Shown here piece after piece: positions 55,113 to 64,000 of a stretch of DNA of 64,000 bases. Made by a program: the position numbers and the translations under genes. Within the stretch, counting starts at the first letter, position 1. Each line of letters opens with the position of its first letter. The stretch comes from Chaetoceros tenuissimus. Taxonomy: Eukaryota; Bacillariophyta; Thalassiosirophyceae; Chaetocerotales; Chaetocerotaceae. The stretch is from NCBI GenBank assembly GCA_021927905.1, contig BLLK01000023.1, forward strand, positions 682,001-746,000, in the 5' to 3' direction. The notes beneath the pieces are model-generated. The model saw only the letters and a program-made list of their open reading frames with translations, ran no database searches and had not been told where the DNA came from.

Positions 55113-55313
55113 AAAGTAGAAAAATGAAGTGGATGAAAAGAAAAGTAGTGACAAGGTAGATACCTATGTACCTTATCACTTTTCTTACAGTGTTGATGAC
55201 ACAGAACAACAAAGAAATAATAAACAGTTTTATTCAGTGCAGTATTCAGTATTGCCATCTGGCCTTTTCCCTACATACGCGAAGAAAGTAGATCACTAAA
55301 TTCCAAAGATAAG

Positions 55314-56687
55314 ATGGAAAGTCTTTTGTGCGAAAACTTGTGGGTGCACATCACTTCCTTCCTCACTCATGTCGACCCATCGTTCTCATCGTCGACGTCA
55401 TCCATTATTGAAAAAGAAGAGCGAGCTCTAAAGTGCACTTCGAAAACTATACATCAATTGCTCACTTCCGAAGAATTTTATCAAGCAAAGACTATAGAAC
55501 TCTTTGCCTCTAGAAGTTGTATACAAGATTGGCCTACTTTAGAGAATGTAGGTAGTTGGAAATCTCTCTGTCATGTCTTGGGGCTTTACATTCCTTTACA
55601 GGGTCTATACACCTTATGTGAATCTTGGCCATGGGGTATGCTTATGGATTGTAAACTTCAGAATGGAAAAGTTTGCGGTGATTTGATTCGAGCCATTCCA
55701 GAGACTACTATGAATACAAACAGTAGTAGAAGTGCATGCTCCTATAGTGTTGAAAGAGTGCGGTTATTTGAGATACAGTTTCAAATAGATACATTTTCGA
55801 AATTGCAAATGAAATGTGTCGTGTATACTGGTGATGGTTCCATAAGACATGCAGTAGACTTTGGAATAATCAAAGATGATGAAGTAGAAGGACCCGAGAC
55901 TCTGACTACTATGAATCCATATCCACGAAACCAAAGTTTTCTTTTTCACCTTCAATGGCCTGTAGGTGATAATGATGAAGATGAGGAAGAATTTGGTAGA
56001 GTCCCATTCATAAATGATGATACTTTTCATCGTCGCCATGATAATGATCCGAATTTGTTTTTGAAACTTATTGAAACACTTCGAACAAAATCACTCGTTG
56101 CACCATTGGAAGATTTGCATAGAATAAGATTTGAATTATTGGATCAAAATATGAAGACTTCAGAGTCCGTAAAAGAAATTGAAATGTTTAAATCTGGCTT
56201 CTATGTTGGAAACTATGGTGAAATGTATGGCCAATTTCAGCATGAAATTATAAATGTTTCCTACTTAGATGCAAGTGATGTAGATTGTTTAGAGAAGGTA
56301 TTTGGTTCGAGGCTGTCAATTGAAGTGTTACAAAGGGTATTTGATTATAGACTGCCAATTCAAGAGCGCCTACAAACCAAGATAGTTGTCGGAAGAAAAC
56401 TTACGGGAGATTTGCATGTTGCAGCGGGAGAAATTACTTGGTTTGCTGATGTTTCCAAACCTAGCAGTGATGGGGATGCCCCAGTACAAGTTGTAGATAA
56501 AGATGGAGTGACCTATCGTGTGTCAAAGTCTTGGCCAGGAATGGGCACACTAGCCTATCCTTTATTTCAGTCTTCAAGTTGGAATGACGGTTGGCTCTTG
56601 CAACTTGGAAATAATCATTTCGCCTTTTGTTGGGATAAATTCCGTGACCAAGATGTTACAATCCTGCATAGGATTTCCTTCTCGTAG
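55314..56687 (+). CDS. F-box protein with FBXO31-like C-terminal domain
   Basis: The 457-aa product has an F-box-like start (LLCENLWVHITSFL, then ALKCTSKTIHQLLTSEEFYQ; about residues 3-57). A GxYxL..SWPWGMLMDCKLQNGKV stretch, common in this type of diatom F-box protein, lies at about 97-125. The C-terminal part resembles the FBXO31 substrate-binding beta barrel: FKSGFYVGNYGEMYGQ, then VVGRKLTGDLHVAAGEITW (the family's TGDpnvPAG element), and a final strand WLLQLGNNHFAFCW. FBXO31-type proteins are SCF substrate receptors. It differs in sequence from the ankyrin family, with no repeats, and is an ordinary neighbour. The match is from memory of the motif pattern, so moderate confidence. Confidence 0.65.
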   Translation: MESLLCENLWVHITSFLTHVDPSFSSSTSSIIEKEERALKCTSKTIHQLLTSEEFYQAKTIELFASRSCIQDWPTLENVGSWKSLCHVLGLYIPLQGLYTLCESWPWGMLMDCKLQNGKVCGDLIRAIPETTMNTNSSRSACSYSVERVRLFEIQFQIDTFSKLQMKCVVYTGDGSIRHAVDFGIIKDDEVEGPETLTTMNPYPRNQSFLFHLQWPVGDNDEDEEEFGRVPFINDDTFHRRHDNDPNLFLKLIETLRTKSLVAPLEDLHRIRFELLDQNMKTSESVKEIEMFKSGFYVGNYGEMYGQFQHEIINVSYLDASDVDCLEKVFGSRLSIEVLQRVFDYRLPIQERLQTKIVVGRKLTGDLHVAAGEITWFADVSKPSSDGDAPVQVVDKDGVTYRVSKSWPGMGTLAYPLFQSSSWNDGWLLQLGNNHFAFCWDKFRDQDVTILHRISFS

Positions 56688-57145: not shown

Positions 57146-60100
57146 ATGATGAGGGTGAAGCAAGTTCATGAACTGGCTTGGCTTTTTGTGTTTTTTTCTA
57201 GTTTGAGATATGTTGAAGCAAACGAACAAAACGAAGAATGGGAAAACATTGCCGTAGTTGATATTGAAACTGTTTCTTCTAGTACCACTGCATCTCCAAG
57301 TGAAGCTTGTGTAATCACAGAAGCTTGTCAGGTAGAAATACCAGAATGGATAGGAGATGGGGTCTGTGATGATGAAGAATACTACAATGGTACCCAATAT
57401 GTTGGTGGCTACAACACAGAAGAGTGCTGCTGGGATGGTGGAGATTGTATTCAAGCTCCTTCTATAAGCCCAAGTCCTACAGAAACCCCTTTTTGTCAAG
57501 TAAACGAACTATTATGCGACGTTCTGACACCTACATGGTTAGGAGATGGGTGGTGTGATTCAGCAGCTCCATACAATACAGAAGAATGTTGTTATGACAA
57601 AGGTGACTGTATTGAATTTAATGAGAAGTATCCCGATTGTAATGTTACAAGTGGATGGACTCTTGGCGATGGATACTGTATGGGAGGAAATTACAACACC
57701 GAAGAATGTGGTTTTGACGGTGGCGATTGCCTTGCCTTTAATCAAATGTATCCAAATTGCGATGTGCCAAACCCTTCTGAGATAGGTAACGGCTATTGCA
57801 ACAGTGGAGAATATAACACTGAGGAATGTGGCTTCGATGGTGGAGATTGCATTGAATGGACAAATGCACCTACTCGATCACCAAGTCCAACGATAAGTTT
57901 CAGCCCAACAGTAATTAGTGAACATCCGAGCACCAGTCCAACCACGTTACTAGATGATTCTCCAGAGAAGGCCAAGAATTATCAAGATTTGTACGTGGCA
58001 TGTGTTGATTCAACCTGGCGTGACTTTTTAGGATGGATCTCCCCTCTTGGTGTTCACAATTTAGTAACTTCATTTGAGAATGCTCAAGAAATATGCCAAG
58101 GCTATAAATACATGTCTTTTGAATGCCCTCGACCAAAAGGGGAAGATAGTCCATTTGGGACCGAAGTGTTTTGTTTTGACGAGAGAGGACTTAGATCAGC
58201 AAAGAAGTATCCTTCAGGAGAATGTAGAAATGAATATGCATCGAATCTTTCTGTAGATCACTGTATCGGTCCGTATTATCATGAAGTTGATCGAGTATGG
58301 CTAGGTGGTTTTCATCGCGGTGCAGTGTATGCTGTAGAGAAAGATACAATACAGGAATCTTTTGACCAATGCCAAAACATTGATCAAGACAATTGGGATA
58401 TCGATGGAGATACATGCTCATGGTTCCAGGAAGGGGATCCTGAAGTCAAATGTTTAGATACTGAACGTTATCAACAAAAATGTGGAAACGCTGCGTACCA
58501 CATTTGTAGTAAATGTATCGAATTAATGTCAGATCACATTGTAACCAGCAACATGAACAGTAATGCAACTGAATTTTACACAAATGTTGGTCCCAATACT
58601 CCGACCACTGCGCATCTACCGGCTTTGGATCCTGCGACAATTGCCATTAGTGGAAATGGAAAACGTGCGTTGATAGCAGAGTTCGGTCAGAAGGAGTCTG
58701 GTCGCGCAACTTTACTTGAGATTCAACCTAACTCTACATTGATACCGAAGTGGAGAGTTCACGGAAAGTACTATGATTCGTTCTTTGGGACAGCTGTTGC
58801 AATATCTGATGATGGGAAGCGATTTGCAGTTGGAGGTAGTGAAGTCTTGAGAGTTTACGAAGAGAATGAATTCGGTAACCTTATTCAACTAGGTCGGGAT
58901 ATTGCCATTGAAGAATACTTGTCTGTTGTCAATCTTTCATTCAGTAAAGATGGAAAGACTATAGCATTTGGAGCTATCAAATCCCATATCGATATTGAGA
59001 CTTACAATACCAATAGTTTAGGTTGGGATACAGTAAATTATGTTGCGGTGTACACTTGGGATGATTCTAAATGGAAGGAAAGTTTTCAGTCAAACAAGTC
59101 CATTCCTAAAACTATATCGATGGATGGCAGTGGGAAACGCATCATTGTTTCGTTTTGGTATATGGGACACGGCGGTGATGGATCTGTTCAGATTTCTACC
59201 CTTTTCGAAAACAAGGGGCCCTCAAAGTGGGAAGAAGTAGCAAGCTTCCGAGGTAGCTATGGCAAAATTAGTGGAAACGGTGAAAGAGTCATAGTTTCTT
59301 TCACTAGTCCCAATGGCTCTGTAGAGGCAGTCGTTTATGAAGAGAATGTAACCGGAAATAGTTGGGTGAAAGTCGCTAATAGTGTGCCTGGGTCGAATGT
59401 TGACTTTCATGGAACATCTATAAATAGGACTGGAAATCGCATTACTGTGAAAGGGTTCTCGGATAATGAAGACCACCAAGACCAAATTCTAAGGGTCTTT
59501 GAAGAAGCTAATGGTGAATGGAAACTGATCACATCCGTATCTGACTTTTATGGACAAGCTACAAAGGGGCATACTATTGATTCAGATGGAGTTAATCTAA
59601 TGAGATTAGTTGAATGGAACGAAACATCATACCGAGTAGATGTGACGAACTTGTGGCGCATAGCTTGTCCGGATCAAAAATTTGATAGTACCTGTGGTGA
59701 TGGTCATGAACATCTGTTTTCAATGGTAAATTCTTGTTCGTCTTCCTGCTACATATGCTCTGCAGGTACTTTCTTGAATGATGGTATTTGTACAAAATGT
59801 CCTGTGGGCTCATATCAAAGTAATGAAGGAAGTTTAGAATGTATCCAATGCCCAGAGGGATTATGGACTTATAGCACTGGATCTTCTTCCCTCGACTTTT
59901 GCAGGTCAGTGTAGAAAATATTTCGAAATTGAAAATACTTTTCCCTTGAAGTATCCTCACCAATATTATTTATCTCAATTTATAGGAGTGAATGCCCATA
60001 TCCATTTCAATCGAGAGTTTTTCGTGCAGAGGACTGTAACCTATGCATACAAGGATTCTACTCTCTCCAAACGCTAGAAAGGGATGACTACAAGACTAAA

Positions 60101-63100
60101 GATACAGATGAACTTTGTTTAAAATGTCCTGATAATACTACATGCCCTATGGGTACATCTGTGCAGTCAATGTCTATCAATGAAGGATTTTGGCGTGAGT
60201 CAAACAATACTGCAGTGGTTTATAAATGTGATGAAAGCTGGAATCTGTGCGGAGGTAACAGCACATCACTCAATGGAAGTTCAAATTATTGCAAAGCTGG
60301 ACACTCAGGTCCACTATGTGAGTCTTGCTCCAATTCCGGGGATTACTTCGATAGCTCGTCAGGAGAATGCAAAAAGTGTGAGGCAAAGAATCTTTTCGCA
60401 AGTCTTGCAATTTTCTTAGCTGGCATCTTCACTATATTGATAATGCTACGGACAAACAAAGAAAGAATTGATAAAGCAGTTAGTTTTTGTTCTAACGTGA
60501 ACATGCATGTCAAACTAAAGATTCTTGTTGGCTTCTATCAAATCCTCAATAGTTTTCGTGATATATATGGTGTAGAAGTTGATAACAAAGTGGCGCGAGC
60601 ATTGAATGTGACGAAAGTGTTTTCTATGGATCTCTTCAAGCTATTTCCTTTTCCATTAGAGTGTGGTATGTACATGAAGTGCAAAAGATTTACCATTTTC
60701 AGTAATAAATTATCTCACAATTTCTTATCCACCGAAAGTACCTTTCCCATCTGAGTATGTAATCAACGGAATTTGGCCATTTCTTCTTTGCGGTAAGTCA
60801 TCCAATCACAAAGCTAAGATCCCTAATTTTTGAATGCTCTGACTTTCAACCTTGTTATGGTACCTAGGGGCTATCTTGCTTACTTTATCCATTGTACGCT
60901 TTATTTGTCCAAATGGAAATAGAAAGGTGACTTAGATTTTTGTTCAAACGTTTTACCATGAAATTAATATGAGCTCACTTCCTTATTTTTCACCACAGCT
61001 GATTGGAAGGATAGAGAAATGCGATGTAGTAAATCTGGGCGTGGTTGTGTTTTACTTTGCACTACCAGTAGTAACTCAGGTGAGTCTTCTTTGAATTTTT
61101 ACATTGCATCTAATTCTCTTTGACTAGACTAACTTTAATCTATGCGAAGGATTTATTCGATGCCAAAAAGTGTAGGTCCTTCATAACCCAGGACATTAAT
61201 TGCGGTGGAGAGAATCAACCATCGTGCAGTACAAGCTACTTACTATTTTCCAAAGATATTGTGTGTGGCTCAGAAGGACCATACGAAACACTACAGGCTC
61301 TATTCTGGACCTTTTTCACATTGTGGCCAATCGCTATTTTCGGGGCTTTTGGAATCCTCTTGCGCCGTGTAAAACCATCGATAATGATGCAAAAGCCGTC
61401 TGGTCTCGCGCTCAATTGTAGATTTTTATGGGCAGATTACAATGACGAGTCGGATATTGCAATGTATTGGGATTTGATTGACTTCGTGAGAAAGCTTGGA
61501 CTTGTTGGTTTCATTAATTTCATCCAAGAGCAGGAAGGATCCACAAAAATGCTGAGACTCACCATCGCAACAGTGGCCTCTGTCATCTATTCCATGACAT
61601 TGGCATTGGTGAGACCTTACAAAAGATCAGACGACTTCAAACTAGCGGTGGTGAGCAGTATTCTTCTTTCGGCATCATTTTGTCTAGGCTTTTCATTGAA
61701 AATGTGTACAACTGATGAGAGTTGCTCGGCCTTCATGGGATTTGAGAATAAGATGGTTGCATCTATGCTTGTTGGCATCCTTGCCTTTTCCATGCTCATT
61801 ATTATGCTTTTTGTGTTGATGAATTCTTCCTCATCTTCAAAGGGTGAGTATACAGAATTGTTTAACTGGTTGTCTCTCCTCTTTTTCAACTCACATCTAT
61901 TGTAATTGCAGTCGTAACTATGAAATATGGACGTCATCCTCCAAACTTGGAGCTGCCTGAAGTTTGTGATCATCATTTGTTCATGTCCCACTTCTGGCAC
62001 ACTGGACAAGACAAATGCCATGCGATTGCTCGCAAGCTCCAACTTTTCATGCCAACTTTAAAGATATGGCTCGATGTAGATAATTTGGATAATGTTGGAA
62101 AGCTCGAGCAATATGTAGAGAAAAGTGCTGTGGTATTGATCTTTTACAGTGACGGTTACTTTGGTTCCAAAAATTGCAGGCGTGAGTTCTTACACGCCCT
62201 GAAGATGCACAAACCTTTAATCATTGTCTACGATGGTCCCAATGAAATCATTGAAAAGTGCCAAGAGTTCTGTTCGAAAGAAGCACTTAGAAAGGATGAC
62301 TACTCTGACTCAGATGTAAGAGAATTAGAGAATAGGATAGAAGACTTTGCGAAGAAGCACGGCGATCCTAATGAGTTAATACAATGGTTGAAGGTATCAG
62401 CATTTTCCACTGAGTCATTAAAACTTATTTACATGAAGTTGCTCCTAAATCTACCTTTTTCGAAAAGGGATGAGAATTACAGAGAGAATCTCACGGAATA
62501 TGGATTACAATTGCCAAAGGAGATCAGTCTTTTATCGAAAATTGAATACGAACTGAACATACTGGTCTCTCATAAAAACAGTTACGCAGTTGAATTTGCA
62601 GAAGAGATCAAAGCAAATTCACCAAAAGTAAATGTTGTGAAAGAAACTGTGGAAGAATGGAACCCTGCAGAAGATACCGACACTATAGCATCTTCTGTAC
62701 AAACTGAGGAAATACAAGAAAGTGCCCTTGATAGTTACATGCGTACTTTTTCAGAGTTTTTCTGGGGAAAATCAAAGCCTGCGATTGATGAGAATCAAAC
62801 TTCTGTTGCATTGGGGAACGAGTCTCCTAAGAAAGGTGTGCCCATCAATGATAGTCCCACCGAAAACTATGAAACCAAGGTACCAACTGTTTTTCTTCTA
62901 CACTTGAACAAAGATACGTTCAATGAGGAGAACCGAGAAAGCATGATTGCATCTATCAAGATTGCTCAGAGACAAAAGATTCCGATCATTCTTTTACATG
63001 AACAAGACACTTTGAAGAATGCAGCTACCGAGTTTAGTTACTTCTTTCAAGAGACCCCGCAGACATTGGACCCATCTGAATTCTATCGTGAAATTGCAAT

Positions 63101-63275
63101 TCCACTCTACACACGCAAAGAATATAGAAGAGTGAGCCTTCACTTCATCGTTCAAAAGATTAATTCATACTTTCTAGAGAAAGCTTCTACTCGTAATAAG
63201 AACCAGTCCATGATGTTTAGTTTGCGCAGACGATCAATAATATCTCAAACTACGGGGTACTCTCCTTTAAAATAG
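57146..63275 (+). CDS. LNR-ectodomain, seven-TM, TIR-domain receptor (seven exons)
   Basis: Joined exons 57146-59904, 59986-60665, 60739-60792, 60868-60926, 60999-61079, 61150-61843 and 61912-63275 give 1,896 codons plus a stop, all in phase with GT..AG introns. A signal peptide (LAWLFVFFSSLRYVEA) leads to four Lin-12/Notch repeats at residues 61-101, 124-155, 165-195 and 205-235 (e.g. GYCNSGEYNTEECGFDGGDC). A propeller-like repeat region follows (AISDDGKRFAVGG, SFSKDGKTIAFGA), then Cys-rich ephrin-receptor-like segments (CPVGSYQSNEGSLECIQCPE). About seven TM helices lie in exons 2-6. The cytoplasmic TIR domain is at about 1462-1560 (FMSHFWHTGQDK, WLDVDNLDNVGKLEQYV, SKNCRREF), with Glu1534 at the usual NADase position. 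A second TIR-like lobe follows at about 1755-1880. It is probably a surface receptor. Confidence 0.85.
59905..59985 (+). other. Intron 1 of the TIR receptor gene
   Basis: 81 bp, GTCAGT..TATAG. Removal joins TGC AG and G AGT, so the frame continues into SECPYPFQ. Confidence 0.85.
60666..60738 (+). other. Intron 2 of the TIR receptor gene
   Basis: 73 bp, GTATGT..GAAAG. Gives LECVPFPSEYVINGIWPF across the join, continuing a TM-rich region. An alternative AG at 60753 is possible but would break the phase. Confidence 0.75.
60793..60867 (+). other. Intron 3 of the TIR receptor gene
   Basis: 75 bp, GTAAGT..CCTAG; joins LLC-G and AILLTLSIV into one TM helix. Confidence 0.85.
60927..60998 (+). other. 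Intron 4 of the TIR receptor gene
   Basis: 72 bp, GTGACT..CACAG, phase 0. The next exon is 81 bp (27 codons) and encodes a hydrophobic segment ending PVVTQ. Confidence 0.8.
61080..61149 (+). other. Intron 5 of the TIR receptor gene
   Basis: 70 bp, GTGAGT..CGAAG. The acceptor at 61149 keeps phase (VVTQ then DLFDAKKC). The nearer AG at 61128 would put a stop in frame and was rejected. Confidence 0.65.
61844..61911 (+). other. Intron 6 of the TIR receptor gene
   Basis: 68 bp, GTGAGT..TGCAG; joins NSSSSSK to VVTMKYGR, linking the last TM helix to the TIR exon. Confidence 0.85.
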
Positions 63276-63363: not shown

Positions 63364-64000
63364 TTATGTCTCTGTAGAAGAAACAACAGCTGTATTACTT
63401 TCCGTCAGCAAAGTAGTACTTTCTGTTATAGTTGGACCAGCCAAACTCTCAATTTCCTCTACAGGTAACAACACAGTCTGAAGTGCCTCTTGTTCTATTG
63501 GTTGACCCATGATTCTTAAAAATTGTCGAACATGCTGAATAGCAGTGTCCGTCGATAGATTCAAATATCCCTCGTGAAGAAACTGTAGAATCCACTTTGG
63601 CAATTTGCTGCGTTTATCTGTGCGGTTGTATCGACTATCTGCCAAAATCATAAGACCGTAATCAGTTTTAGAACGAATTACTCGACCAACACATTGACTT
63701 GCTTGTCGTAAAGCATCAAAATTTAAAAAGTCTTGCTCGCGTATTTGATAATGAGTTTGTAAAAATTCCAATCTTGCTCTCAAAACATGTGATAATGTGT
63801 ACTGAAATGGAACTCCAAACATAATTACAGCTCTTCCATAATGACGATCGAAGTTGATTCCTTCAGATACCTTTCCTCGGGCAACAGACAAAAACACTGC
63901 TCCTCGACCAGAATCACATGCTCTCCTATAATTATCCAAGGCCAAAGTTGTTTCTACAACATCCTTGGTTTCAATAAAAACAAGTTTATGTTTGGTCAAT
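63364..64000 (-). CDS. XPD: XPD/ERCC2 DNA helicase, C-terminal part (runs off the window)
   Basis: The minus-strand frame is open to the right edge, so about 211 C-terminal residues are seen. They match the helicase domain 2 of the Rad3/XPD family closely: LVFIETKDVVETTLALDNYR, GRGAVFLSVARGKVSEGI, FDRHYGRAVIMFGVPFQYTL, QASQCVGRVIRSKTDYGLMI (motif VI) and SKLPKWIL. XPD is the 5'-3' helicase of TFIIH, needed for nucleotide-excision repair and transcription start. The Fe-S cluster and motif I lie beyond the window. The tail after the helicase is a Thr/Ser-rich extension. It converges with the TIR receptor gene across 88 bp. Confidence 0.93.
   Translation of the reverse strand, partial: LTKHKLVFIETKDVVETTLALDNYRRACDSGRGAVFLSVARGKVSEGINFDRHYGRAVIMFGVPFQYTLSHVLRARLEFLQTHYQIREQDFLNFDALRQASQCVGRVIRSKTDYGLMILADSRYNRTDKRSKLPKWILQFLHEGYLNLSTDTAIQHVRQFLRIMGQPIEQEALQTVLLPVEEIESLAGPTITESTTLLTESNTAVVSSTET

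Follow-up and report, generated by a model that had tools for sequence, protein, structure and literature searches.

The stretch analysed here, 64,000 nucleotides of the genome of the diatom Chaetoceros tenuissimus (contig BLLK01000023.1, positions 682,001 to 746,000 of the forward strand; hereafter the window, whose positions are used throughout), holds a plus-strand gene that runs from an ATG at 57146 (or 57149) to a TAG ending at 63275. Its seven predicted exons would encode a membrane protein with a large outer part, a polytopic membrane part and a cytoplasmic TIR domain. By searching the genome (41.03 Mb, 68 contigs) with the membrane-plus-TIR part, we found four more such genes, making five in all. 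Judged from their predicted proteins, a core made up of a Cys-rich stalk, a polytopic membrane part, a TIR domain and a second C-terminal domain is kept among the five genes, and the ectodomain is swapped. The parts of the window gene are listed below, with amino acids (aa) numbered along the spliced product.

57146..59904, plus strand: exon 1, aa 1-919, with a signal peptide-like start, four LNR-type modules, a linker, a propeller-like region and an Ephrin_rec_like stalk (927-codon open frame, Pfam, motifs; signal peptide by eye)
57353..57850, plus strand: LNR-type modules, aa 70-101, 133-155, 174-195 and 214-235 (Pfam, motif patterns)
58646..59599, plus strand: propeller-like region, aa 501-818, about seven blade motifs (six by pattern, the seventh by eye near 658)
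59765..59902, plus strand: Ephrin_rec_like stalk module, aa 874-919 (Pfam PF07699, 44.5 bits; 52.4 bits in the genome search)
59986..60665 (or from 59989), plus strand: exon 2, Cys-rich stalk, first predicted membrane helix 1056-1074 and marginal segment 1094-1120 (for this and the next four exons: splice model, hydropathy, alignment)
60739..60792, plus strand: exon 3, start of predicted helix 1160-1178
60868..60926, plus strand: exon 4, second part of helix 1160-1178, then the beginning of a basic loop
60999..61079, plus strand: exon 5, predicted helix 1192-1210
61150..61843, plus strand: exon 6, Cys-containing loop, predicted helices 1264-1282, 1316-1342 (marginal), 1347-1365, 1376-1394 and 1417-1435, and RPYKR motif
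61912..63275, plus strand: exon 7, juxtamembrane segment, TIR domain, C-terminal domain and stop (open frame, splice model, alignment)
61980..62237, plus strand: TIR_2 match, aa 1466-1551 (Pfam, genome search)
62184..62186, plus strand: codon of Glu1534, the putative catalytic Glu of the TIR domain (five of five family members; weak alignments to flax and bacterial TIRs)
62547..63179, plus strand: second conserved cytoplasmic domain, aa about 1655-1865 (five of five family members; weak hhalign match to the TIR profile)

The predicted chain and its ectodomain

The six introns (59905-59985, 60666-60738, 60793-60867, 60927-60998, 61080-61149 and 61844-61911) are all of the GT..AG type, phase-consistent and 68-81 bases long, and their removal leaves a chain of 1,896 aa. 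This model took rank 1 among 244 phase-consistent combinations, which were built from candidate ranges of our own choosing and ordered by a simple home-made splice-site score. Like exon 1, exons 2, 6 and 7 lie within long open frames. In a multiple alignment, each of the six junctions is flanked on both sides by aligned sequence of open-frame paralogues; at junctions 1, 2 and 4, gaps of 1-4 residues occur relative to some of these paralogues. Intron 1 ends in two acceptors, 59985 and 59988, which lie three bases apart (TAGGAG). Use of the acceptor at 59988 gives 1,895 aa and ranks 5 by splice-site score; it produces the sequence C-S-E-C, which aligns gap-free with three paralogues that have C-x-E-C or C-x-R-C there. 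Because this acceptor fits the paralogues better, residue numbers beyond 919 may need lowering by one. Since the paralogues continue through all six junctions in open frame, the chain is well supported as a design, with splicing predicted from the DNA. An initial annotation of this DNA had proposed a single 1,896-aa chain over seven exons, and the top splice score together with the continuous open frames of two paralogues bears this out, with the small proviso of the alternative acceptor.

In the outer part, Pfam scored LNR (PF00066) at 29.4 bits on the whole protein (cut-off 21.2), with two stretches individually passing E 1, and a phmmer search of the PDB sequences matched aa 143-245 to the LNRs of Notch1 (E 7.9e-4). 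Modules 1 and 2 have six Cys each, including a Cys pair, and modules 3 and 4 have four. A strict Notch-type LNR carries six Cys per module, a pattern from which modules 3 and 4 depart. The four LNR modules and the Cys-rich segments of the initial annotation were both recovered, the former by motifs and Pfam, the latter as the Ephrin_rec_like module and a stalk that is kept in the paralogues. Its propeller-like ectodomain fared less evenly: about seven blade motifs can be recognized, and the Pfam match, to the THOC3 propeller, is weak (E 0.0012; 18.4 bits, cut-off 305).

A five-gene family with a shared membrane-TIR core

The member on contig C38 is a 2,171-aa open frame that contains an FG-GAP ectodomain, the stalk, the membrane part, the TIR and the C-terminal domain. 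Used as a single-sequence query, its membrane part returned only the same five genes, all with TIR, in a search that could miss more distant ones. On contig C13, a 1,050-aa open frame extends from the stalk through the C-terminus, and residues 878-1866 of the window protein share 36% identity with it. The ectodomain contents of the C13 and C54 members were read from open frames, not from spliced models: the first C13 gene has a long Ephrin_rec_like array in a frame just upstream, for the second, the frames seen contain next to no ectodomain, and the C54 member carries FG-GAP repeats. The two C13 members adjoin (L024 40-2695 and 4005-8503), and are likely the product of a tandem duplication. 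Ephrin_rec_like modules also occur at G000:C54:3026272-3026517, within a frame given as 6,391 aa. In IMG/VR, no relatives of the membrane part or of the TIR were confirmed.

Hydropathy gives seven strong peaks in the membrane part and two marginal segments, 1094-1120 and 1316-1342, with a best mean hydropathy of 0.7-1.4 over the members covered. A count of nine helices would put the Cys-containing loops 1211-1263 and 1395-1416 on the outer side and the basic loops 1179-1191 and 1366-1375 on the inner side; a count of seven would put the Cys loop 1211-1263 on the inner side. Either count places the N-terminus out and the C-terminus in, which agrees with the distribution of Cys along the chain (55 in the first 1,055 residues and 5 in the last 461). 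We prefer nine predicted helices, which are at least as likely as seven, so that the "about seven" of the initial annotation stands as regards a polytopic protein with seven strong peaks and is left in doubt as a count. No Pfam family scored over its cut-off in the membrane part of any of the three members scanned, no 7tm family appeared among their Pfam matches, and the PDB sequences gave no match to it at E up to 10.

The initial annotation had put its emphasis on the joining of Notch repeats to a TIR domain, and this emphasis proved misplaced. LNR matches in the genome number at least 76 (150 of 387 candidates scored), and the other four family members, as far as their frames were seen, carry FG-GAP repeats, Ephrin_rec_like arrays or hardly any ectodomain in its place. 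A TIR_2 profile search found 16 TIR places, one of which, the window gene itself, has a listed LNR within 10 kb. Because LNRs are abundant and one TIR place in 16 lies near one, the pairing reads as a local shuffle, with the membrane-TIR core as the unit, and LNR plus TIR was rejected as the defining novelty. Going by the predicted proteins, the LNR is a module of one family member, and the membrane-TIR core is the special part. The available text of the C. tenuissimus genome report likewise describes the notch domain as notably more numerous in this species (PMC8613185). Neither the five-gene family nor the second C-terminal domain had been mentioned in the initial annotation.

The TIR domain, Glu1534 and the second C-terminal domain

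TIR_2 (PF13676) scored 28.9 bits on the segment alone and 29.7 bits in the genome search, against a cut-off of 28, and it matches the TIR segments of all five family members at E up to 10 (best 8.8e-10). When whole frames of the paralogues were scored, three of the four exceeded the cut-off; the C38 member reached 21.1 bits. The stretch S1528-K-N-C1531-R-R-E1534 is invariant in the five members, and the whole TIR segment of the window protein is 45-52% identical to those of the others. Profile searches for LNR and TIR, suggested in the initial annotation, thus placed both PF00066 and PF13676 over cut-off (the latter on the segment), and the cytoplasmic TIR with its S-x-x-C-x-x-E pattern and Glu1534 was found as described there, at a position that fits known catalytic TIRs. 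This Glu is required in the known TIR NADases, yet its presence is no proof of enzyme activity.

Glu1534 aligns with the Glu of a stronger diatom TIR on contig C18 and with the Glu of five of five bacterial TIRs, in the latter case beside large gaps and at 18-22% identity. The bacterial sequences came from the genome contig collection, with a query alignment led by the C18 diatom TIR and not by the window TIR. A search of the PDB sequences with the TIR profile gave four matches at E up to 10: the bacterial TIR 3h16 (E 0.013), the designed Rossmann protein 2l69 (0.11), and flax L7 (0.43) and L6 (0.99). In these two non-significant flax matches, Glu1534 again aligns with the Glu of the TIR. Single-sequence structure prediction of exon 7 reached a predicted local distance difference test score (pLDDT) of only 34.8. 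A weak model of the TIR, built with an alignment that included the five bacterial TIRs, shows strands and helices in the order typical of a TIR, and its third long helix carries Glu1534 (model residue 79). The top Foldseek hits of this model are plant TIRs (best E 2.4e-3), and VIA matched it to a SPARTA TIR (Z 9.7, 2.8 Å, 121 residues) and to SARM1 (Z 8.9, 3.2 Å, 124 residues). These fold matches are of limited weight, because the confidence of the model is low and its alignment already contained TIRs.

The window TIR segment had a single PADLOC match (E 0.028), located outside the TIR core, and the C13 paralogue matched PDC-S66 over its TIR start (E 2.8e-4). NCBIfam gave no matches for the window parts. 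A SAM_KSR1 match just after the TIR core, below cut-off and in one of five members, was set aside, as were PTS_IIA, ODV-E18 and other Pfam matches that were weak and below cut-off.

The second C-terminal domain occupies the last 210 residues or so, and has the invariant motifs H-E-x-D and E-Y-R-x-V-S and a variable linker. No PDB sequence matched the C-terminal profile at E up to 10. Compared with the TIR profile in hhalign, the domain gave Prob 1.3 and E 0.041, and E 0.024 after removal of the linker columns, with V-F-L-L-H-L-N-K-D-T-F of the second domain paired with V-V-L-I-F-Y-S-D-G-Y-F of the TIR. It is possibly a degenerate TIR split by the variable linker. This idea is suggestive only, since 5 of 200 column shuffles equalled or exceeded the score.

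The genome holds other TIR proteins. The C18 protein (L031:2694-4850, G000:C18) is a 719-aa frame with a strong C-terminal TIR (81.5 bits, S-I-N-C-Q-R-E); its N-terminal part is helical and SAM-like by eye, its Pfam matches are confined to the TIR stretch, and its PADLOC matches are to bacterial TIR defence models. Two proteins of the Roc-COR GTPase type end in a TIR (L026:2-3970 and L027:3256-6378; several of the matches are below Pfam cut-offs), one with ankyrin repeats and the other with a weak CHAT match. An ankyrin-TIR protein of 988 aa is encoded at L032:1142-4105 (G000:C10), and a place with the same score and frame length at G000:C42:218211-218570 is perhaps its duplicate or allele. 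Eleven silicon-transporter matches mark the genome as that of a diatom; three of these follow one another at G000:C17:442278-446357, in a frame given as 1,459 aa, one with two internal stops. The window itself has a G+C content of 36-41%, and the neighbours of the receptor-like gene are a protein with a Cyclin_D1_bind domain upstream (55224-56684, plus strand) and a Helicase_C_2 protein downstream (63367-63999, minus strand), of the XPD/RAD3 type by eye.

Candidate receptors and known systems

This layout naturally suggests a protein of the receptor type. We give about an even chance to a polytopic receptor of the plasma membrane (or of an endomembrane), belonging to a five-member diatom family, whose TIR output is either enzymatic or scaffolding. 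In such a receptor, the LNR and propeller-like part would bind a ligand, a surface or a neighbouring cell, the signal would travel through the stalk and the helix bundle, and the cytoplasmic TIRs would be brought together so that the output is switched on. The TIR could then act on NAD+ (or a related nucleotide) to make a signal molecule and, if it is enzymatic, the second C-terminal domain might tune the assembly. Of the two outputs we lean a little towards the enzyme over pure scaffolding, since the Glu and its Ser/Cys frame never vary among the five members, whereas the TIR segment of the window protein as a whole is only 45-52% identical to those of the others.

Several observations weigh against such a receptor, or against parts of it. 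On the whole window protein, TIR_2 scores 25.4 bits, below the Pfam cut-off of 28. The TIR model, which covers 173 residues, is of low confidence (pLDDT 51.5, predicted template modelling score 0.41), Foldseek found no match to it at E 0.001 or below, and a septin GTPase (Z 9.4) is on a par with the TIRs in VIA. Structure prediction, which the initial annotation had also suggested, therefore yielded a TIR-like order of elements and stopped short of a secure fold. The C54 gene has stops within its matched stretches, which may be introns or damage. The membrane domain matched nothing known in Pfam or among the PDB sequences, so that it may have a role as a channel, transporter or G-protein-coupled receptor. 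Finally, those TIRs of animal Toll-like receptors that are not known as NADases likewise keep a Glu at this position, and for this reason the Glu does not decide between an enzyme and a scaffold.

The same receptor might accordingly use its TIR as a non-enzymatic platform, on which ligand-driven TIR-TIR contacts recruit proteins, as in animal Toll-like receptor signalling. A TIR anchored in the membrane below a large ectodomain is a Toll-like layout, the second conserved C-terminal domain could serve as a docking surface, and the further TIR proteins among the 16 places in the genome are possible partners; the invariance of the catalytic-frame Glu, Ser and Cys in all five members argues the other way, and we consider a pure platform possible, at clearly less than an even chance. 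Rather doubtful in our estimation is a protein of adhesion or cell recognition, acting for instance at mating or chain contact, whose TIR would be a secondary signalling tail and which would have no part in defence. The modules FG-GAP, LNR and Ephrin_rec_like do occur in adhesion-type ectodomains, and they vary between the paralogues, but this explanation is compatible with the receptor we favour and mainly names another ligand.

It is unlikely that the membrane part is itself a channel, a transporter or a G-protein-coupled receptor, to which the TIR would be a regulatory tail and the ectodomain a gate or an anchor. The stretches FYFALP, GFINFI and RPYKR, invariant in three aligned members, exceed the needs of a plain tether. 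The RPY region may bear a likeness to fungal TRP-like proteins. The Cys-rich frame next to the first C13 gene scores 74.2 bits (cut-off 38.9) with NCD3G, a Cys-rich domain found in family 3 G-protein-coupled receptors, although Ephrin_rec_like reaches a far higher score over these repeats (202.6 bits). Against such a role stands the failure of the membrane part to match either a Pfam family over cut-off or a PDB sequence. A gene-model artefact, in which the ectodomain and the TIR belong to two genes, is very improbable: the six introns are deduced from DNA sequence alone, but the LNRs and the stalk module share one open exon, and the two-gene model was rejected on account of two paralogues that hold the stalk, the membrane part and the TIR in single open frames.

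Returning to the receptor family, defence is one of several possible roles, and contact, mating and chain recognition are equally open. A more specific proposal, which we put forward tentatively and hold to be less probable than the general one, is a class of polytopic receptor-NADases in diatoms, in which shuffled ectodomains (LNR-propeller, FG-GAP and Ephrin_rec_like arrays) would sit on a fixed membrane core that would drive an active TIR beside a degenerate second TIR. If this were true, a phytoplankton cell would convert an extracellular cue directly into a signal derived from NAD. Little is known of the way in which diatoms sense viruses, bacteria and one another at their surface, and five genes whose outer parts are exchangeable and whose signalling core is fixed offer testable candidates for surface receptors with TIR output. 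A single-celled alga may thus possess its own kind of TIR-linked surface receptor. C. tenuissimus is described, in the available text of its genome report, as coexisting with infectious viruses (PMC8613185).

A comparable layout is that of the animal Toll-like receptors, which share with the window protein a large outer part, a membrane passage and a cytoplasmic TIR. Toll-like receptors have a leucine-rich-repeat ectodomain and one membrane helix, whereas the window protein has at least seven predicted helices, matches TIR_2 rather than strongly PF01582, and has no leucine-rich repeats among its Pfam matches up to E 1. With the plant TIR immune receptors (flax L6/L7, RPS4, RPP1) it shares a weakly aligned Glu after S-x-x-C-x-x, and plant TIRs are the top Foldseek hits of the low-confidence model; the plant receptors, however, are cytosolic nucleotide-binding leucine-rich-repeat (NB-LRR) proteins, and the window protein is predicted to be a membrane protein. 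The likeness to SARM1 and the bacterial TIR NADases lies in the TIR-like strand-helix order and in the Glu in the third long helix of the weak model, but Pfam names no helical-repeat domain, and the SAM-like match is below cut-off in one of five members. In the Notch receptor, a single chain combines EGF repeats with LNRs and ankyrin repeats; the window protein likewise has LNR-type modules, two of them with four Cys, and the Pfam results for it contain no other Notch receptor domain.

Among protists, the accessible part of a preprint atlas describes Dictyostelium TirC, with a hydrophobic N-terminal helix, and TirE, with two TIR domains; these are protist TIRs, as here, and for neither does that text mention a large ectodomain or a polytopic part (PMC13142454). 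The same text reports 7,432 eukaryotic TIR domains and several clades of purely eukaryotic TIRs that are uncharacterised, and the atlas may include sequences of the present kind. TIR-NB-LRR proteins in the haptophyte Emiliania huxleyi have been discussed as a hypothesis, in the portion of the paper available (PMC4236053). Among the matches listed in a literature search, which covered titles and the starts of abstracts and few subscription journals, there was no polytopic TIR receptor from a diatom, and none in which exchangeable ectodomains are combined with a polytopic membrane core and a TIR. The separate parts are known, and so are TIR receptors; what is new, as far as the literature matches listed show, is their combination.

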